DNA of 26,062 nucleotides from a virus: IMG/VR virus record IMGVR_UViG_3300044799_000749, positions 1 through 26,062 of that record, one strand, 5' to 3'. The position numbers were made by a program, and so were the translations under genes. Numbering within the stretch: the stretch's first letter is position 1; every line of letters begins with the position of its first letter. A model generated the notes under the pieces. It was not told the DNA's origin, ran no database searches, and saw only the letters and a list, made by a program, of their open reading frames with translations. This document shows, piece by piece, positions 10,475 to 23,803 of this stretch.

Positions 10475-10837
10475 ATGCTTTATGTTGATAGTCGATATAA
10501 TAAAGAGAAATCATTTCCCATTCCGTTTAGAGGAGAACTCCGCACGGCTATCACTTTTAGGAAAATAGATAGAGAAATACCAAGCGGATCTTTTCTTTAT
10601 ACTATTAAAGAAACAGACACCTTAGATATGTTGGCATTTAAATTTTTCGGGGTTGGGGAATACTGGTGGTACCTTGCTGATTTGAACCCACATGTGGAAC
10701 CTTGGGATTTAGGAAACTATGTGGGTGTTCAAATTTGGATCCCCCCTGTTCATAAAGCAATCTCGAAGCAGAGAATTACACAGAAAATTGTTGTTAATCC
10801 TGCTCAAAATCCCCCCTCCGCATATATATTCGGATGA
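10475..10837 (+). CDS. LysM-like / T4 gp53-like baseplate protein
   Basis: A 120-residue protein. Residues 42-91 form a LysM-like unit: 'YTIKETDTLDMLAFKFFGV', then 'YWWYLADLNPHVEPWDLG' and 'VGVQIWIPP'. The order 'T.DTLDMLA', 'NP' and 'G..IWIPP' is that of the LysM fold. In contractile tails this fold is found in gp53 and in proteins linking hub to wedge, where it makes protein contacts rather than binding peptidoglycan. It is encoded next to the CIS-tube domain gene, so the two may be split halves of an Afp7-type protein. A role in cell-wall contact is possible but less likely at this position. Confidence 0.72.
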   Translation: MLYVDSRYNKEKSFPIPFRGELRTAITFRKIDREIPSGSFLYTIKETDTLDMLAFKFFGVGEYWWYLADLNPHVEPWDLGNYVGVQIWIPPVHKAISKQRITQKIVVNPAQNPPSAYIFG

Positions 10838-10838
10838 T

Positions 10839-11669
10839 ATGATGACTAAAAAAAATATAAGAGAGCCTTATTTTGAAATAACTGTAGGAGATACTCTTCT
10901 CAGTATGGAAGATCTGTTCAGGATAGATTCTATAAAAATAGAAGATACTAAGGAAGACGCGGATAAATGTGATTTTACTGTTGCGGATGTTAATTATGAA
11001 TATGTGGATATTTATACTGAAGAAAAACCTATAAGGGTCATTGTGGGATACCTTGTTGGGGATAAATATGTTTTTATAGGAAAGATAAGCACGGTTACTG
11101 TTAAATACCCCGAAGATGGTGTTCCTAGATTGCAGGTTTCTTGCACTTCTAGGGTGAAAGAACTTATGGATACCCAGGAGAATACTCTTTGGGAAAACAT
11201 AACAGCTTCTCAACTGGCTCAGAAGATTGCTGATAAATATGGGTTAAAGGCTGATATTGATGAAACAACAGTTTTATTTCCCTATGTTTCCCAGACGGGG
11301 ATTACAGATGCTGCCTTATTAAGAAAATTGTCTAGGAAATCCAACCGAATTTTTAAGGTTAGAGGAAATGTTCTTGCTTTTTATAAAGAGAAACCTACCG
11401 CTGAAAGTGCCAAGGTTTTTTATTATAGGGAAGAAGATCATTCTATAAAGAATTGTGAAATAAAATATAAAACCGAAACAAAAGCAAGAGGAGTTGGGGG
11501 GGCAAACTTAAATAATATGGAAGGGACTCCTGTTGAGGGGGAAGCAGAGGGAGCGGATACTGCTGGTTCAGAAAATGTTGTTGATTCTATTATGGATAGT
11601 CTTACAAGAGAGGATTTAACTTCTCCTGAGATTTATGATCCAGAGTCAGGTGAATTCTTTTTCCCATGA
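10839..11669 (+). CDS. Baseplate hub protein gpD-like, N-terminal part (late control D family)
   Basis: I place the start at ATG 10839 (or 10842, tandem ATGs), just after the previous stop; upstream codons in this frame only shadow the LysM gene. The 276-residue product shows the gpD/gp27 hub pattern: 'YFEITVGDTLLSMEDLFRID', 'DKCDFTVAD', 'TLWENITASQLAQKIADKYG' (116-135) and 'QTGITDAALLRKLSRKSN' (152-169). Such proteins form the trimeric hub that carries the spike. It ends at TGA 11667-11669 within an acidic linker ('DPESGEFFFP'), while the conserved C-terminal barrel is encoded by the overlapping next ORF in the -1 frame. It is either half of a two-subunit hub, half of a frameshifted product, or the result of an indel. 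Confidence 0.8.
   Translation: MMTKKNIREPYFEITVGDTLLSMEDLFRIDSIKIEDTKEDADKCDFTVADVNYEYVDIYTEEKPIRVIVGYLVGDKYVFIGKISTVTVKYPEDGVPRLQVSCTSRVKELMDTQENTLWENITASQLAQKIADKYGLKADIDETTVLFPYVSQTGITDAALLRKLSRKSNRIFKVRGNVLAFYKEKPTAESAKVFYYREEDHSIKNCEIKYKTETKARGVGGANLNNMEGTPVEGEAEGADTAGSENVVDSIMDSLTREDLTSPEIYDPESGEFFFP
11660..11666 (+). other. Candidate -1 slippery heptamer in the split hub gene (T TTC CCA)
   Basis: Zero-frame codons here are TTT TTC CCA TGA. The -1 frame is open only from 11654, so any shift joining the two hub ORFs must fall in about 15 bases. T TTC CCA (11660-11666) fits the X XXY YYZ pattern, and C TTT TTC (11657-11663) is a near match. CCC in the A site is not a strong slipper, so this is a weak candidate. 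The run of five T is also a place where a single-base sequencing error could create the split. Confidence 0.35.
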
Positions 11670-12139
11670 CAATAAAATCAACGAAATATTATCTCAAAGA
11701 CCAAGATGAAGGGGGGGCAATGCCCGACACTGCTGAGGAATTGTCGGATGCCTTAGAAAATCGTAGGGGTATAAATGAGAAAGCCTTAGAGGGCAAGGTA
11801 ACTTTGAAATATGCCGAACCTAGTTTAATTTCGGGGGAAACTATTATTTTAAAGGGACTTGGTCCTCGATTTAGTGGACAATACATTATAGAAAAGCATA
11901 CAATATCATATTCCAAAGGTGGTGGTCTAACAAGTGCTTTAGACCTTTCTAGAAATGCTATTGGGGATACATCAAATATTAATTCCTCTGGGACTACTTC
12001 CGGATCGGATTCTCCTTCGGAAGATGCTACTTCCGGAGCAGGGGGGAGCACAGAACAACAAGATCCTATTACCCTGACTAGAGATGAGGCTGTAAACTTT
12101 ACTCAGACAGGAGAACTACCAGAGAGGGCTACTGAATAA
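11666..12139 (+). CDS. Baseplate hub protein gpD-like, C-terminal part
   Basis: A 157-residue ORF whose ATG (11666) overlaps the stop of the upstream hub ORF (ATGA). AGGTGA lies 12 bases upstream, a usable but distant ribosome site. Residues 25-97 carry the typical end of gpD proteins: 'ALEGKVTLKYAEPSLISGET', 'LKGLGPRFSGQYIIEKHTIS' and a closing 'LDLSRN'. The remaining 60 residues are a Ser/Gly/Thr-rich acidic tail. The upstream ORF lacks this barrel segment, so the two ORFs together equal one ordinary hub protein of about 430 residues. A run of seven G at 11711-11717 lies near its start. Coupled translation and -1 frameshifting are both possible. Confidence 0.75.
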   Translation: MTIKSTKYYLKDQDEGGAMPDTAEELSDALENRRGINEKALEGKVTLKYAEPSLISGETIILKGLGPRFSGQYIIEKHTISYSKGGGLTSALDLSRNAIGDTSNINSSGTTSGSDSPSEDATSGAGGSTEQQDPITLTRDEAVNFTQTGELPERATE

Positions 12140-13197
12140 TGCAGAGATTTTGGGGAAAATATAGAGCTACAATTGCTGATAATCAGGATCCTCAGTATAG
12201 AGGAAGGATACGTGTATCTAGTCCATTAGTTTATGGGCGTAATAGCGATTCTGGGGAATTGGTTGTTTCCCCTTGGGCTTTACCTTGTTTTGCTTATGGT
12301 GGATCTGCTGATATGGGAAGTTTTGCTGTTCCACCTATTGGGTCTGGGGTCTGGATTGAGTTTGAACAGGGAGATCCGGATAAACCTATTTGGGTAGGGT
12401 CTTGGGTACAATCCCCTTCTGGGTCTGGCACAGAGGTTCCTAAAGAGGCTGTGATTAAAGAGGGATCAGGCAACCGTTTTGCTTGGAATACCGAAGCTGG
12501 TGTTGGTTCAGAAGATAATGCTCCTATACCCCAAAGTAATCCTGACAGAAAAGATCCTCAAAATTGTGTTTTCAGAACCCCCGCTGGTCATACTATAGAA
12601 ATTGATGACACTGAGAATCAACTGAAAATAAAGGTAACAGATAGCAGTGGACAGTTTCTTCTCTTCAGACCTGAGGATGGTAATGGAGGAGGTCCTAAGA
12701 TTTTATTGAAAGGAGCTTGGGGGCAATATGTTTTTTTAAATGGGAAGACTGGTGAATCAAAAATAGAATTCAAGGATAAGTCTGGGAATATAATAACTAT
12801 GGATGCAGAGGATGGTTCTATCCATCTGGAAAATGCCACTGGTGATTATATAGATATGCTTGATGGGGTTATGAATATTTTTGCTAGAACAGATGTTAAT
12901 ATAAATACTTTGGATAGTAAGATTCTTTTGAATTGTAATTCAGGAAGTATTGAGCTTAATTCCGAGGGGGGAGAAGTTGTTCTGAACTCTTTAACTGGTG
13001 GTCATGTGGATGTTAATGGGACAAATGTCAACGTGGAGGCTTTGGGCACTGTACAAGTCCATGGTAATATGGTACAAATAGATGCGGGGGCTGCTATCCA
13101 AATTGCTGGTGGTGGTCCCGCAATTGCTAGAGTTGGAGATTCATTAAGCTGTGGTGGTATAATCACTACCGGGTCTGGTAAAGCGAGTTGTGGGTAA
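12139..13197 (+). CDS. Baseplate spike protein (gpV / T4 gp5-like) with beta-helix and PAAR-like tip
   Basis: A 352-residue protein starting at ATG 12139 (TAATG overlap). Residues 8-92 form the gp5/VgrG OB-fold: 'QDPQYRGRIRV', 'SPWALPCFAYGG', 'GSGVWIEFEQGDPDKPIWVG'. Residues 145-325 are a repeated beta pattern rich in Asn, Asp and Gly ('INTLDSKILLNCNSGSIELN'), forming the triple-stranded needle. The last 26 residues ('PAIARVGDSLSCGGIITTGS', then KASCG) resemble the start of a PAAR domain and probably sharpen the tip. No lysozyme domain is present, unlike T4 gp5. The trimer sits on the gpD hub and punctures the outer envelope on contraction. Confidence 0.9.
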   Translation: MQRFWGKYRATIADNQDPQYRGRIRVSSPLVYGRNSDSGELVVSPWALPCFAYGGSADMGSFAVPPIGSGVWIEFEQGDPDKPIWVGSWVQSPSGSGTEVPKEAVIKEGSGNRFAWNTEAGVGSEDNAPIPQSNPDRKDPQNCVFRTPAGHTIEIDDTENQLKIKVTDSSGQFLLFRPEDGNGGGPKILLKGAWGQYVFLNGKTGESKIEFKDKSGNIITMDAEDGSIHLENATGDYIDMLDGVMNIFARTDVNINTLDSKILLNCNSGSIELNSEGGEVVLNSLTGGHVDVNGTNVNVEALGTVQVHGNMVQIDAGAAIQIAGGGPAIARVGDSLSCGGIITTGSGKASCG

Positions 13198-13696: not shown

Positions 13697-14530
13697 ATGC
13701 CCGGATTCGCTAATCTTGATGCTATTATCAATGCTGTATCTGTTAATTTAAAATTGCAACGTCTTCAATATAATAAGGTGTTGCCTTCAACATCGGTTAT
13801 TTATATTCCCCATACGTTTTGGTTGGCTACTGGAAACCCGGCTGCGGGAACCACTCCTGATGTTGGTCTTGCCGGAGCAGTAAAATGTGATATGACTACA
13901 CAGGGAGCAATTCTCTATACTAATCCAACTGGACCAGCAACGATGCACATCCTGTCAATGATGCTCTATTCTGTGACACCGGGAATTTTCTATCTCGTTG
14001 ACCGATTGGCACATGCGAACGTGGCAGTTAATCAGGCTGATGGAAGTTTCAGTCCCATTATTGACGGAAGGGATCGTCTGGATTCTGGAGAAGGCGGACA
14101 GATAATCATGGAAGTGACCGGGGGAACTCTTAGTATTGCTGCGAACACGGTTAATCTTACCTACACAAATGAAAGTGATGTTTCTCATATCACACCGTTA
14201 CTTACTACAGTTGCCTCCTCAAAAATTGGTAGAGTCCCCTATGCAAATTATATATGGGTTCCTTTGTTAGCAGGGGATAAAGGTGTGAGGACAATAACAT
14301 ATTGGGATATCACAGCGGATACACAGACAGGAAATATAAATATTGTAATCGTAAAACCGATTGCACAGCTAATTGTTCCTGGAGCATCTATTGCTGCCGA
14401 GAGAGATTTTGTCGTCGAATTACCCTGTGTTCCTAAGATAAAAGATAATAGTTGTCTTATGCTTTATTTTGTTCCTCAAGCTGCTTCTTCAGCAATTTGT
14501 ATTGGTGAAATACGCATCTGCGAAAATTAA
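13697..14530 (+). CDS. Phage structural protein, first of two tandem paralogues
   Basis: A 277-residue protein starting at ATG 13697 after GAGGGA. It is beta-rich, with few charges and many Ala, Thr and Val. It shares with the next gene the blocks 'AAGTTPDVGLAGAV', 'VDRLAHANVAVNQADGSFSP', 'IIDGRDRLDSGEGGQIIMEV' and 'VPYANYIWVPLLAGDK', at corresponding positions, so the two arose by duplication and diverged. I do not recognise the family; the composition suits a shell, decoration or trimeric fibre-shaft protein. Because it lies between spike and wedge genes, a peripheral baseplate role is the simplest inference. Confidence 0.6.
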   Translation: MPGFANLDAIINAVSVNLKLQRLQYNKVLPSTSVIYIPHTFWLATGNPAAGTTPDVGLAGAVKCDMTTQGAILYTNPTGPATMHILSMMLYSVTPGIFYLVDRLAHANVAVNQADGSFSPIIDGRDRLDSGEGGQIIMEVTGGTLSIAANTVNLTYTNESDVSHITPLLTTVASSKIGRVPYANYIWVPLLAGDKGVRTITYWDITADTQTGNINIVIVKPIAQLIVPGASIAAERDFVVELPCVPKIKDNSCLMLYFVPQAASSAICIGEIRICEN

Positions 14531-14539
14531 GGATGAATT

Positions 14540-15388
14540 ATGGCTGGATTTGCGACATTTGCTGCTGTGAAAGAGGAAATTGCCAAGGCTCATGGTCAAG
14601 TGATATTACCTTTTGTAAAAGTCCTTCCAACTGGAGTGATAAGTCGAGGAGGAACTACTTGGATGCAAGCAGGGCTTCCACCCGCTGGTACGACCCCGAC
14701 GACTGGACTGGCGGGGGCAGTCACTGTTGACAAGACAAATGCAGGAGCAATGAAATTTGATGATGCCCCTGCTGGACAGAATAACTATTTATGGAAAGGT
14801 CTTGTGACGAGGGCAGTAGCAGCAGCAATGGATACATTATCAGGACTTTCTCTGGTCGTTGATCGCCTGGCTCATGCAAATGTATCCATAGTTCTAGGTT
14901 CGGGTAGTTTTTCCCCAATAATTGATGGAAGAGCACGACTTGTAGTAGGAGAAGGTGGACAGATTATTTGTGAAGTCACTTCTGCTTTGAGTGCAAGCGC
15001 GAATACATTTACTTTGACTTATACTAATGAAAACAATGTTTCACATGTAACTCCAGTAGTCACTACGGTAGCGAGTGCAGCAATAGCAACATTTCCCTAT
15101 GCAAATTATTTCTTCGTACCTTTATTGGCTGGAGACAAAGCTGTAAGAACAATTACGGCTTGGACTCTTGCGGGGGGTGTAGCAACAGGAAATATAAATA
15201 TCGCCATTGTGAAACCTCTGTTATGGTTGCCTCATCCTTTCCAGTCGATGATGACTGAAAGAGAATTGTCAATACAAATGCAGGGATTACAGTCTGTGGA
15301 TAATAACGCATGTTTGCAGATGTTATTCTTTTTTGCTAGTACGTGGGTAGTTCCTCTTATGGGGGAGTTGAAACTTATTAAAGGATGA
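14540..15388 (+). CDS. Phage structural protein, second of two tandem paralogues
   Basis: A 282-residue protein starting at ATG 14540 with AAGGATG upstream. It matches the preceding protein along its length: 'PAGTTPTTGLAGAVTVD', 'VVDRLAHANVSIVLGSGSFS', 'VGEGGQIICEV', 'FPYANYFFVPLLAGDKAVRT'. The N-terminal 60 residues differ most. The duplicated pair may form a hetero-oligomer or occupy non-equivalent sites in one structure. Function unknown. Its stop overlaps the ATG of the repeat-protein gene (ATGA at 15385), which suggests the three are made together. Confidence 0.6.
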   Translation: MAGFATFAAVKEEIAKAHGQVILPFVKVLPTGVISRGGTTWMQAGLPPAGTTPTTGLAGAVTVDKTNAGAMKFDDAPAGQNNYLWKGLVTRAVAAAMDTLSGLSLVVDRLAHANVSIVLGSGSFSPIIDGRARLVVGEGGQIICEVTSALSASANTFTLTYTNENNVSHVTPVVTTVASAAIATFPYANYFFVPLLAGDKAVRTITAWTLAGGVATGNINIAIVKPLLWLPHPFQSMMTERELSIQMQGLQSVDNNACLQMLFFFASTWVVPLMGELKLIKG

Positions 15389-16515
15389 ATAGAACAAACG
15401 GCATATTGGGTTGTAGCCAGTTAGTTTCTAGGGATACTTCCTCTGATCGTTGGGGGTATAGTGCATTACAATTTGAGCTTCGATCTAATCAATTGCAACG
15501 TCCTAATTTTCCTATGGCTATTTCCAGCCGTCCTGAAACTGTAGATTCTGTAGCTATAGGAACTTCTATAATTACAAGACTTGTTTCTGGATTTCGTAAT
15601 GTTGTATCTGTAGCTATAGGAACTTCTATAATTACAAGACTTGTTTCTAGATTTCGTAATGTTGTATCTGTAGCTATAGGAACTTCTATAATTACAAGAC
15701 TTGTTTCTGGATTTCGGGATATAATATCCTTAGCCGGGGGTATCCCTGTTTCAGTAGAAGAGTTTACTGCAGGAATTAAACAATATTTTGAGGAAGTAAT
15801 AGCAGAGGCAATTGGGGTTGTTGTATCTTTGAGGTTTGTAACTGGTTTTAGGACAATACTGTCTGTAGCAACTGGAATTCCTAATAATGTGAGATTTCTT
15901 AATACCAAAAGATTGACAACTGTTGTGTCTACTGGTGTTCCTTTGATAAGCAAATTGGTTTCAGAATTTCGTGTTATGACTACAACAGCAATAGGGACTT
16001 CTGTAGTTAATAGGAGCTTAAATTCTAAGCGGTCAGTAATTGCTATGGGGGTCAATATTGTTTCTTCGGCTGAACAGTTTGTTTCTGGGGCTATAAAAAA
16101 ATATTTTGAACTTGTTACAGTGGTTATTGTAGGATTAGTAAATATTGGAAGATTATCTTGTCTCCACCGAACTGTTGGGGCTATATCCATTGTAACACCT
16201 ATTATTTCTAGGTTGGTGTTTTTTCCACGCTCTGTTATAACTGTAATAGTTGGAATAGTTGCTGTTGGTCGGAGGTTATCTCTTTCAAGAACTGTTATAA
16301 GTATGGCTCTTGGAATTCCTATAATATCAAGGTTTCTTAATCTGCTACGGTTAGTCATTTCTTCTAGTATTGGGATTCCTAAAATTTCTAGTTTTTCTAG
16401 AATTATATCTAGAACTGTAATATGGGAGTTCCCATTGAAAAGAGTTTCTGTAAGTGAGTTTACATCAAAGGATGTAATATCTTCTCATTCTAAAAAGAAT
16501 GTTGAGGTGATGTAA
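15385..16515 (+). CDS. Protein of about fifteen 20-residue hydrophobic repeats
   Basis: A 376-residue protein whose ATG (15385) overlaps the upstream stop. Residues 1-52 form a unique leader. From residue 53 the protein is a series of about fifteen units with period 20, of the form 'VVSVAIGTSIITRLVSGFRN'. Three units are nearly identical; the rest are degenerate but keep a V/I-x-S/T start, a small residue and Gly near position 7, a hydrophobic pair with Ser/Arg near 11-14, and Arg near 19. Two units are longer and end in 'KQYFEE' and 'KKYFEL'. The regularity suggests a beta-solenoid or stacked-turn fold. I recognise no family. It lies in the accessory baseplate block, so a rod or scaffold role is possible. 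Confidence 0.65.
   Translation: MNRTNGILGCSQLVSRDTSSDRWGYSALQFELRSNQLQRPNFPMAISSRPETVDSVAIGTSIITRLVSGFRNVVSVAIGTSIITRLVSRFRNVVSVAIGTSIITRLVSGFRDIISLAGGIPVSVEEFTAGIKQYFEEVIAEAIGVVVSLRFVTGFRTILSVATGIPNNVRFLNTKRLTTVVSTGVPLISKLVSEFRVMTTTAIGTSVVNRSLNSKRSVIAMGVNIVSSAEQFVSGAIKKYFELVTVVIVGLVNIGRLSCLHRTVGAISIVTPIISRLVFFPRSVITVIVGIVAVGRRLSLSRTVISMALGIPIISRFLNLLRLVISSSIGIPKISSFSRIISRTVIWEFPLKRVSVSEFTSKDVISSHSKKNVEVM
15541..15720 (+). repeat. Three tandem 60-bp direct repeats
   Basis: Units at 15541-15600, 15601-15660 and 15661-15720 are near identical; the core from CTGTAGCTATAGG through the TTACAAGACTTGTTTCT end is the same in all three. The second and third differ at only a few bases. Unit length is exactly 20 codons, so gain or loss of copies keeps the reading frame. 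More diverged units continue downstream to about 16480. Confidence 0.95.
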
Positions 16516-17354: not shown

Positions 17355-18848
17355 ATGTCTCTTTCAAGTGTAAATCTGGATGTCAGTAAGTTTATAGACT
17401 TTACTGCGGGAATTGATTATACTCGAATAAGTTGGAAAGATCTTCTCAGTGAGATGGCTGATCAGATTCCTAAAATTTGTCCTGAATGGACAGATTACAG
17501 TCCTTCAGATTTTGGTATTGTGATTTTACAGCTTTTAGCAGGGGCATTGGATAAAATATCTTATCGTGTTGACTTGGCTATGAATGAGAATTCTCTTGAA
17601 ACTGCTGTTTTGAGAGAATCAATTTATAGATTGGCTAAACTTATTGACTATACTCCTTCTCCGTCTGTGAGTGCTTCTGTAGATCTTACCTTTGTAGCTT
17701 CTGGGGGAGTAACTATTCCTCAAGGAACTAAGGTGAGTACTTTGGGGTCGGCTACAACCTCAGCAATTACTTTTGAAACTTTGGAAGAGTTAGTTATTAC
17801 TGGTCCTGCTCCCTATCTTGGAATTGTTTCTGCAATCCAAGGAGAAACTATAAATGAGGTTATAGGAAGTAGTAAGGGAACTTCTCATCAGACTTTTAAC
17901 CTCTCTAGATCCCCGGTTACTTATAATTCTATAGGAGAGAGTTCCTTAATCCTTATAGTGATTGATGGGGGGGTTCTAGAAATTTGGACAGAAGTAGAAA
18001 CAATTCTTGATTATGGTCCGACTGATAAAGTTTTTGAGGTTGATATAAATTCAGAAGGTTCACTAACTATTATCTTCGGGGATAATAGGAATGGAAAAAT
18101 ACCTGTACAAGGGACTAACAATATACAGGCAGAATATAGGATAGGGGTAGGAATACTAGGTAATGTTCCTGCTTCTACAATCAAGAGTTTAGTAACCAGT
18201 CTTCCTTTAGTAGTTGGGGTTACTAATGGGGCAGCAGCATCAGGAGGGGCGGATGCAGAAAGTTTAGAAGATATTAAAAGAAATGCTCCTAGAAGTTTAA
18301 GGACAGTATGGCGAGCAGTAACAGCAGAGGATTATAAGACCTTAGCAGAAAGTAAAGTAGGAGTAGCAAAAGCATATGCTGTTTGTGGGATAATAACTTT
18401 AGCTTCTGAATATCTTCCTGTTCTGCTATATATTGCTCCCACAGGTGGGGGACTACCTTCCTCAGAGCTTAAAGAAGAATTAACAGAGTTCTTTGCAGAA
18501 AGACAAATGCTTTGTTCTGAAACAACTGTTTTAGATCCAGATTATGTTACAGTTAATGTGAATATTCTTGTGACAGCGCAACCACATTATCTCAATTCAG
18601 ATGTGAAAACTCGGGTTACGACCAAGATTACCGATTATTTTTCCTTTGACAATGTTGACTTTGGTTATGACATCTGGCTTTCTGATTTCTTGTCACAATT
18701 AGAATCATTAATTGGGGTAGATCATACAGATGTTATTCAATTATATAGGGGTGATGAGGTGGTTGGTTTTGGTAATGTGTCTGTGGATTCAAAAGAGATT
18801 CCACAGTTGGGAACTCTAACGGTAAACGTTGTCGGGGGTGTGGAATGA
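17355..18848 (+). CDS. Baseplate wedge protein J (T4 gp6 / P2 gpJ-like)
   Basis: A 497-residue protein starting at ATG 17355 with GGGGTG 8 bases upstream. Motifs in order: 'WKDLLSEMADQIPKICPEWT' and 'DFGIVILQLLAGALDKISYR' near residues 27-71; 'GGVTIPQGTKV' near 117-127; 'FGDNRNGKIP' at 241-250; 'TNGAAASGGADAESLEDIKR' near 290-309; and 'TVWRAVTAEDYKTLAES' near 317-333. These are the standard elements of J-type proteins, which dimerise with gpI-type partners to build the wedge. The C-terminal third is less conserved, as usual. Very firm call. Confidence 0.95.
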   Translation: MSLSSVNLDVSKFIDFTAGIDYTRISWKDLLSEMADQIPKICPEWTDYSPSDFGIVILQLLAGALDKISYRVDLAMNENSLETAVLRESIYRLAKLIDYTPSPSVSASVDLTFVASGGVTIPQGTKVSTLGSATTSAITFETLEELVITGPAPYLGIVSAIQGETINEVIGSSKGTSHQTFNLSRSPVTYNSIGESSLILIVIDGGVLEIWTEVETILDYGPTDKVFEVDINSEGSLTIIFGDNRNGKIPVQGTNNIQAEYRIGVGILGNVPASTIKSLVTSLPLVVGVTNGAAASGGADAESLEDIKRNAPRSLRTVWRAVTAEDYKTLAESKVGVAKAYAVCGIITLASEYLPVLLYIAPTGGGLPSSELKEELTEFFAERQMLCSETTVLDPDYVTVNVNILVTAQPHYLNSDVKTRVTTKITDYFSFDNVDFGYDIWLSDFLSQLESLIGVDHTDVIQLYRGDEVVGFGNVSVDSKEIPQLGTLTVNVVGGVE

Positions 18849-20692: not shown

Positions 20693-22777
20693 ATGACACA
20701 ACCTTCGAATACCTTTGATGAAACTAAGAACTGGTTATGGATTAATCAGCAGGAAAATGTTCCTCTGGAAGCGGATAAATTAAATATAGATTCCCAGATT
20801 GCCAGTTTATTGACACGAAGAGCAATTTGTGAACTTATAGGTAATGGGTCTGCGAATGATGGCTTTCTTGTAGATGATACTGAAGAGCTTAACCCGGTTA
20901 TTGGAATAGGTAATATATATGCCTGTGGGATAAAATTGGAACAGCCTGATGAGATAACCTACAATACTCAACCTAGTTTTACGGAGACTACTGAAAAGAC
21001 AGCAGGGGATGGGATATACTATCTCGACATTGTTGAAGAACAGTTGACTGAGATAATAGATCCTGATATTATTGATCCTGCTATTGGATTCCCTACAGTT
21101 CTTCCTAAAAGGGCTAAATGGATTTTAAAATGGGTAGAAGATACAGCTATAATGCCGAACCCGTCTGCCACTCATTATCATATTCTTGTTGGTATCAGAT
21201 CAGGAGGAATCCTTGTAGACCAAAGGAATGCTGGGATTGTTGTTGCTGGTGCGGATACAGGGTTTCAGGGGAGAGAAGGTGAAGGGTTAGCAGAGGGAAC
21301 TTCTTCTCAGGGTTGTGATCATATTCTTACTGTTTCTAAATCTGGGGATACTCCGTATTCTACAATTCAGAACGCACTTGATTACGCGGAAGCTCAAACG
21401 CCTACTAAGGAAACTCCTTGGATAGTTGCTGTCTGTCCTGGAGAATATGATGAACCTATAATAGTGGGGAAAGATTATGTTAGTCTTGTGGGGGTTGGGG
21501 GGACTCGTAAGGATGGGGCAAGGGTTCTTGGTCATTATGTTGCTCCTACAATAGAATCATGTGTGGAAAATATGATGTTTGAGAAAGTTCTTGTTCCCGG
21601 TGGAACTGATGGTATCATTTTTGCTGGAGAAGGAATACATGATTTTATAAATTGTAAGTTTAAGATAGCTAGTACAAATATGGGAAGTTATTTAGTGGAT
21701 ATTGGTTCAACTGGAGAAGGCACCTATACTTTTCAAGATTGTGATTTTGAATATATTGCAACAGGAATTGTAGGAGGATTAAAAACACATGGGGTTCTCT
21801 ATTGTGGGAATTCATCAGATACTATTATATTGCGGATGACAGGCTGTAAGATAGATTTTTCTCTAGAGGATGATAATGATTATTATTTTATATTTGCTTT
21901 TGATGGTCTTGGTCCTAAAGAATATGTTATTGACAATAATGTGATTACTGTTAATACTGGGGGAGCCGATGGTCCCTATGAAAGGATAGTTCTTTGGACA
22001 ACAAGTCCGGGTATCCCGGCAACTATAGGGGATAAATATCCTTCCTTTATTAATAATAGAATATCAGTTACTCATGATATGGGTCCTAGTCTTACTTATG
22101 CGAAGACTTGGCATTATTGGGTTGGGTCAACTGGAGTTTTATTGGTCCAAAATAATAGTTGGGGAAATAGTATAGGTCGAGGAATATACTGTGATGGAAT
22201 AGCTTATGTTTATGGTGATACTGGTCTGGCAATTGGTGTAGAAGGCTCAGGTACTGTTTATGGTTCTTTTATTTGTAACCAAGCAGGGGGTTATAACCAT
22301 ATTTCTCAATTAGATGTTTTAGGAAAAGGTTGTTTAGGGAGTAACCAAGAGATTCCTCTTAATTTAGTGCAGACAGTTGTTCAATTTGATACTGAAGTTT
22401 TGGATACAGTTTCTGATTGGTTTGATCAGGGAACATACTCCTGGACTGTTCGGAGGGGCGGTTATATTTCTATACAAGGTAAACTACAGGTTTCCTATGT
22501 TGTTTCTACAGCGAAGACTTTAAATCTCCTTGTGGAAATTCTAAAAGATGGAATATCTATTGATAATTCTGTTTTTCAAATCCAAAACCTTGGTTCCATA
22601 GCTTTAGAGAACCAATTTGTTTGTCCTCTTTTGTATACAGGGTTACTGGAAGTTGGGGCTGTTATAACAATTGCTGTTACTGCTCAAATCCCGGCTGTTA
22701 GTCCTACTGACGAGCTTCTTATTTTAGGAGATGGAAGTGGTCTGGATACAGTTCTTACTGTTCAGAAAATAGCATAA
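20693..22777 (+). CDS. Tailspike / tail fibre with beta-helix and C1q/TNF-like C-terminus
   Basis: A 694-residue protein starting at ATG 20693. Residues 1-200 form an attachment domain shared with the next gene (see 'RRAICELIGNG' in both). Residues 205-550 begin with 'SGDTPYSTIQNALDYAEAQT' and 'PWIVAVCPGEYDEPIIVGKD', the standard start of pectate-lyase-like beta helices, followed by many N/D/G-rich rungs. Residues 556-694 are a beta sandwich pattern ('VQFDTEVLDTVSDWFDQGTY', 'RRGGYISIQGKLQVSY', ending 'LDTVLTVQKIA') resembling C1q/TNF-like jelly rolls, common at receptor-binding ends. Probably recognises and possibly cleaves host surface glycan; no catalytic residues can be assigned. Confidence 0.82.
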   Translation: MTQPSNTFDETKNWLWINQQENVPLEADKLNIDSQIASLLTRRAICELIGNGSANDGFLVDDTEELNPVIGIGNIYACGIKLEQPDEITYNTQPSFTETTEKTAGDGIYYLDIVEEQLTEIIDPDIIDPAIGFPTVLPKRAKWILKWVEDTAIMPNPSATHYHILVGIRSGGILVDQRNAGIVVAGADTGFQGREGEGLAEGTSSQGCDHILTVSKSGDTPYSTIQNALDYAEAQTPTKETPWIVAVCPGEYDEPIIVGKDYVSLVGVGGTRKDGARVLGHYVAPTIESCVENMMFEKVLVPGGTDGIIFAGEGIHDFINCKFKIASTNMGSYLVDIGSTGEGTYTFQDCDFEYIATGIVGGLKTHGVLYCGNSSDTIILRMTGCKIDFSLEDDNDYYFIFAFDGLGPKEYVIDNNVITVNTGGADGPYERIVLWTTSPGIPATIGDKYPSFINNRISVTHDMGPSLTYAKTWHYWVGSTGVLLVQNNSWGNSIGRGIYCDGIAYVYGDTGLAIGVEGSGTVYGSFICNQAGGYNHISQLDVLGKGCLGSNQEIPLNLVQTVVQFDTEVLDTVSDWFDQGTYSWTVRRGGYISIQGKLQVSYVVSTAKTLNLLVEILKDGISIDNSVFQIQNLGSIALENQFVCPLLYTGLLEVGAVITIAVTAQIPAVSPTDELLILGDGSGLDTVLTVQKIA

Positions 22778-22795: not shown

Positions 22796-23803
22796 ATGGC
22801 TACACCGCTGGATACTTATAATGAATTTAAAAATTGGATTTGGCTAAACTTCCAAAAGACTGTACCTATAGAGGCAGATAAGCTGAATATACAGGCACAG
22901 AGTCTTAAAGATCATATTAGAAGAGCCATTTGTGAACTTATTGGTAATGGAGCAGGATATGATGGCTTTCTTATAGTTCCTACTGATCCAAGTGATCCAA
23001 CAATAAAAGCAGGGAGTATTTTTATTGCAGGGCATAAATTGGATTTAGAAGCAGATGTTACTTATTCAACACAACCTTGGGCTGTGGATGCTCCTGCCAT
23101 TTCAAACCCTGCAGAGGGTTTTTATTACCTTTCGGTTATAGAAGAATTAATAGACCAGTCAGATGATGCAGAGATTGTTGATCCTTTGTTGGGAATAGAA
23201 TGTGTACAGCCTTACAGGTTGAAATGGGTTGTAAAATATAAAGCTGCCCCGTTCACTCTTCCAGTCCCGGCTGATAATGAATATCTAATGAGTTTATATA
23301 TTGTTAGTTCGACTCCTCCGTTTGCTGACCTAGATTTAAGAAGTAGGTATTGCTCTGTAAAAGCTGGAGTTGATACCCGGTATCAAGATAGGGAAGGGGG
23401 AATTCTTGGGAGTGGACATGAACATCATTTGGATGATATTTGGGTTATTAGTATTGGGGATGGGTATTATTCGTATACTGATTTTCAAACAGTTATGGAT
23501 TCTATTTATGATAGGATACTTTCTATAGAAGATAATACCCGTTTCAAAACAGCTAAAGGTGGGGGAACTCCTGGGGGAACTTATGGTAAATTAACAGGGG
23601 CTATTAATGGAGTAAATCAGATCTATTACCTCCCAGATAAATATATCGCGGGGAGCTTGCATGTGTACGTTGGGGGTGTTAGACTATCCCCTGATGGTGA
23701 CGATTACTCTGAATCTGATCCGGAAACTGGTAAGTTAATTATGGTGATTGCTCCAGAATCGAATTCTATTATCCTTGTAGACTACATTGAAGATCCTTTA
23801 TAG
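22796..23803 (+). CDS. Tail fibre protein with paralogous N-terminal attachment domain
   Basis: A 335-residue protein starting at ATG 22796 behind AAGGA. Residues 1-200 align with the N-terminus of the preceding fibre: 'FKNWIWLNFQKTVPIEADKL', 'IRRAICELIGNG', 'GFYYLSVIEEL', 'RLKWVVKYK'. The rest is short: a His-rich stretch (GSGHEHHLDD), a helical segment and a C-terminal beta domain with 'LPDKYIAGSLHVYVGGVRLS', common in phage adhesin tips. It lacks the beta helix, so this may be a short fibre or an adaptor that binds the same baseplate site as its paralogue. Confidence 0.72.
   Translation: MATPLDTYNEFKNWIWLNFQKTVPIEADKLNIQAQSLKDHIRRAICELIGNGAGYDGFLIVPTDPSDPTIKAGSIFIAGHKLDLEADVTYSTQPWAVDAPAISNPAEGFYYLSVIEELIDQSDDAEIVDPLLGIECVQPYRLKWVVKYKAAPFTLPVPADNEYLMSLYIVSSTPPFADLDLRSRYCSVKAGVDTRYQDREGGILGSGHEHHLDDIWVISIGDGYYSYTDFQTVMDSIYDRILSIEDNTRFKTAKGGGTPGGTYGKLTGAINGVNQIYYLPDKYIAGSLHVYVGGVRLSPDGDDYSESDPETGKLIMVIAPESNSIILVDYIEDPL

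Follow-up and report, generated by a model that had tools for sequence, protein, structure and literature searches.

We propose that the hub of the contractile-tail phage represented by the window (the whole stretch of DNA analyzed here, a 26,062-base IMG/VR virus fragment covered by a single contig) is, very probably, a genuine two-chain protein and a newly found variant of a known hub family. Dozens of uncultured phages have the same two-gene arrangement, which therefore appears to be a genuine design of the protein rather than an error of sequencing.

As described in the initial annotation, the locus consists of two overlapping open reading frames (ORFs) in −1 register with a T5 run just upstream of the overlap; the overlapping bases are ATGA. 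The genes in this part of the window are ordered tape measure, CIS tube, LysM/gp53-like protein, hub ORFs, and spike, and the features around the junction are as follows.

10475 to 10837, plus strand: gp53/LysM-like baseplate protein, upstream neighbor (phrog_7145, E = 8.6e-5; synteny)
10839 to 11669, plus strand: hub chain 1 (gpD/gp27-type, N-terminal part), 276 aa (phrog_52 and profile matches)
11634 to 11666, plus strand: YDPESGEFFFP, C-terminal motif of chain 1, common to chain 1 of the nearest relative, L034
11648 to 11653, plus strand: AGGTGA, weak Shine-Dalgarno-like sequence, 12 nt before the ATG (hybridization energy, −3.8 kcal/mol)
11658 to 11662, plus strand: T5 run, suspected earlier; the relatives have no conserved slippery site
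11666 to 11669, plus strand: ATGA, chain-2 start overlapping the chain-1 stop (from the sequence; like junctions in split relatives)
11666 to 12139, plus strand: hub chain 2 (predicted C-terminal part of barrel 2 and a low-complexity tail), 157 aa (phrog_52 and profile matches)
11720 to 11722, plus strand: second in-frame ATG of chain 2, after the AAGGGGGGG stretch; alternative, less likely start
12139 to 13197, plus strand: central spike (Phage_base_V OB domain), downstream neighbor (PF04717, E = 2.1e-18; synteny)

ORF1 ends with ...EIYDPESGEFFFP-TGA, and ORF2 opens with ATG ACA ATA AAA in register −1 (equivalent to +2) relative to ORF1. The TGA at 11651 to 11653, within AGGTGA, closes the chain-2 frame upstream, and therefore a change of frame is possible only in positions 11654 to 11669. 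We rejected the ATG at 11720 as the true start of chain 2, because conserved residues homologous to those of other chain-2 proteins precede it. Five other gene junctions in the window also have a start-stop overlap of 1 or 4 nt.

We then analyzed the sequences of the two ORFs. ORF1 matches the PHROG tail family phrog_52 at columns 212 to 415 (E = 1.2e-15), and ORF2 matches the same family, in order, at columns 452 to 557 (E = 7.3e-11); the Pfam GPD match obtained from the single sequence was below the cut-off. Folds were compared through sequence profiles only, and the profiles of the two halves matched solved hubs with E values of 5.6e-11 and 4.9e-7. The N-half profile, built from 35 homologues, matched the N-terminal parts of the A-1(L) hub (8kea), the pyocin R2 hub (6u5h, residues 2 to 164), the MuSo2 hub (3cdd), and VgrG chains, and the C-half profile matched residues 286 to 353 of 9gtr, 253 to 321 of the pyocin R2 hub (6u5h), and 295 to 358 of T4 gp27. 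A direct hhalign comparison with T4 gp27 was weak (E = 0.08), aligning at residues 308 to 350. These profiles agree with the earlier assignment of the N-terminal hub motifs to ORF1 and of the C-terminal barrel to ORF2, with the refinement that, by analogy with gp27, barrel 2 would draw on both ORFs. In T4 gp27, the two homologous barrels comprise residues 2 to 111 and residues 207 to 239 plus 307 to 368 (PMC3004832), and the cut in the window hub falls within the stretch corresponding to the insertion that separates gp27 residues 239 and 307. By the same analogy, chain 1 would contain the first barrel, the alpha/beta domain, and the first strands of barrel 2. The break would thus fall in a loop or insertion inside the second beta-barrel, and the two chains would complete one barrel.

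The hub therefore resembles the P2 gpD/T4 gp27/Mu gp44 family (phrog_52; Pfam PF05954 Phage_GPD and PF24032 YQBQ) in the family matches of both halves, in the position of its genes beside the spike and after the LysM and tube-end proteins, and in its expected place between the tail tube and the spike. Known members are one polypeptide carrying both barrels, whereas in the window and in 31 clusters of relatives two ORFs encode the hub, which is therefore a variant of the gpD/gp27 family. That such hubs are normally a single polypeptide, as initially annotated, holds for every solved hub that we found, and the diffocin, A-1(L), P1, and XM1 hubs are each described as one protein. A profile of single-chain relatives aligns with the Anabaena phage A-1(L) hub gp15 (8kea) across both halves of its barrel region (residues 481 to 699), but gp15 is one 899-residue chain with hydrolase domains. 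We also observed that phrog_20686, a 135-aa PHROG family without an assigned function, matches chain 2 of the window, of L034, and of another split hub, L113; judging from these matches, it may represent a stand-alone C-terminal hub part in deposited phages.

The gene order LysM - hub N - hub C - spike - gp25 - J is kept among split-hub records. The window and 11 long records (43 to 104 kb, which may be incomplete) each contain exactly one N-profile and one C-profile match, adjacent to each other. Bacillus phage SP-15 and Streptomyces phage LuckySocke share the order sheath, tube, tape measure, LysM, hub, spike, but their hubs are single ORFs of 382 and 410 aa. Elsewhere in the window, the tail module contains two adjacent paralogues without an assigned function (13697 to 14530 and 14540 to 15388), 46% identical over their whole length. 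The protein encoded at 15385 to 16515 consists of repeated SVAIGTSIITRLVSGF-like units, and no counterpart of it was noted. Two further adjacent tail-module proteins (20693 to 22777 and 22796 to 23803) have a common N-terminal part of 230 residues (38% identity) and differing C-terminal parts, and they are likely alternative fiber or adhesin modules. Over the whole window, runs of at least five identical bases number 61 for G and 5 for C, versus about 38 and 5 expected from a first-order Markov model.

Relatives were recovered with alignment queries. A scan with the sheath alignment yielded 80 loci, and scans with an alignment of hub N halves and with the second lineage's own N halves revealed a sizable second group of uncultured phages with contractile tails, whose hubs are split at the same place as in the window; since the latter query was built from split hubs, the share of split hubs in the whole collection cannot be read from these counts. 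Single-sequence scans of viral contigs with ORF1, the spike, and the LysM protein found no relative, nor did two scans of genome contigs. Among 50,697 phage records queried with the chains of several split hubs, we obtained distant matches only, and most of the annotated ones are single hub or tail proteins. Neither a cultured phage with a split hub nor a solved split hub was found, and the open-access literature searched contained no report of a two-chain hub.

The closest hub relative found, L034, is approximately 24% identical to the window hub and is split at the same place, identically in five contigs. Its ORF1 (17538 to 18377) ends with ...YKYDPKKGQWISVALK-TAA, and its ORF2 starts with a GTG at 18392, after a 14-nt spacer that contains a perfect Shine-Dalgarno sequence (AAAGGAGGAAT). 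The two hubs have in common the motif YDPxxGx[WF] at the end of chain 1 (YDPKKGQWISVALK-stop in L034). In its longer form, Y-x-YDPxxGx[WF] (window, 11634 to 11666; L034, 18330 to 18374), the motif appears again close to the beginning of chain 2 in L034 (18440 to 18480), and a similar stretch, VDGITGKE, is present in the linker and at the C terminus of the single-chain hub L031; it is possible that the motif is a docking peptide. L028, the closest relative by its sheath (82% identical), is a contig that stops in the tape measure gene, before the hub.

Altogether, 81 chain-1 sequences of split hubs formed 31 clusters at 90% identity, which include L034 and exclude the window. In 88 split loci and in the window, chain 2 starts no more than 14 nt upstream or downstream of the end of the first stop codon, with junctions of the form ATGA, GTGA, TAATG, or TGATG or with short gaps, as expected for coupled pairs, in which a conserved start overlaps or adjoins the upstream stop. 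The other register is used in 6 of the 31 clusters, and on the tree the register switches three times inside the second group. In L114, the reading frame of chain 2 is closed right up to its own ATG, and at several loci the overlap is too short for slippage. Codon-position divergence in two groups was highest at third positions on both sides of the junction, and therefore both frames are under selection and are read as protein up to the junction. Many junctions have a normally spaced Shine-Dalgarno sequence (GGGAGG in the L134 group, for instance), and those of the L113 group have little or none, a pattern that, at the sequence level, is compatible with translational coupling.

In a tree of 38 sequences, split hubs fall at two places: the second group (support, 100/100) lies beside single-chain hubs, and the window pairs with L034 (93/93) near the single-chain hubs L031 and L118. 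The window and L034, whose mutual identity is low, have long branches, so their exact placement is less sure than their separation from the second group. A single clade for all split hubs was rejected by the AU test (P = 3e-8, and 4e-4 without the window), with the caveat of these long branches. The trees place two independent origins of the split among single-chain hubs. In L031 (16945 to 18405) and L118 (7344 to 8873), the single-chain hubs nearest to the window clade, the first hub segment is followed by a long insertion; that of L118 contains a LysM domain (PF01476, E = 2e-10), and a separate LysM gene was not detected in L031.

The initial annotation had left open whether the two ORFs reflect coupled translation of two chains, a programmed −1 frameshift, or a single-base error in the T5 run. 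Should a base be missing near this run, the gene would really be one ORF in this virus; the zone in which an error could lie (11654 to 11669) does include the homopolymer, and hubs of one continuous ORF, which the initial annotation had suggested looking for, are indeed usual among more distant relatives. The nearest relative, L034, nevertheless has its break at this very point, its spacer could not result from a one-base error, there is a second large split lineage, and the ATGA form agrees with other junctions in the window. We therefore consider a sequencing or assembly error unlikely.

A frameshift, which would yield a full-length hub with or without a truncated form, would be in keeping with the −1 register and the T-rich stretch in the short overlap, but there is no canonical XXXYYYZ heptamer, most relatives have no T run and share neither a slippery site nor a fixed register, and the predicted downstream RNA fold is no better than those of shuffled sequences (z = −0.2). 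Together with the second register, the L114 frame, the short overlaps, and the L034 spacer with its Shine-Dalgarno sequence, this makes a frameshift very improbable. We give equally little credit to the hub gene being a decayed pseudogene in a phage served by another hub. In favor of this reading, the window is only a 26-kb part of the genome, but family motifs are kept in both halves, no additional hub is present in relatives of 43 to 104 kb that have this split, and codon-position divergence in relatives is normal on either side of the junction. Conversely, chain-2 starts within 14 nt of the stop, two registers, and short overlaps fit two polypeptides made by coupled reinitiation and speak against both programmed frameshifting and the loss of a base; of the three options, a two-chain hub is strongly supported by the split relatives in two separate lineages.

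We propose that one mRNA would carry chains 1 and 2 and that the ribosome would end chain 1 at the TGA (11667) and reinitiate at the ATG that overlaps it (11666), so that both chains are made in matched amounts. The chains would then assemble, probably three of each, into the usual trimeric hub between the tail tube and the spike. Because the break lies in a loop inside the discontinuous barrel 2, both chains would contribute strands to this barrel. On balance, we favor a broader view: a recurrent two-chain hub, with three copies of each chain, in which strands from a second polypeptide complete a barrel of the symmetry-adapting ring. Such a hub would have arisen at least twice, each time at the same loop, and would have been kept across a widespread uncultured contractile-tail lineage.

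The hub belongs to the core of contractile tails, pyocins, and type VI spikes. A stable split inside its barrel would show where the fold tolerates a break. A natural two-component hub would be usable in engineering tail-like machines. For annotation, genes labeled as a truncated gpD and a hypothetical protein can together encode a complete hub, and split hubs may give phrog_20686 a function.
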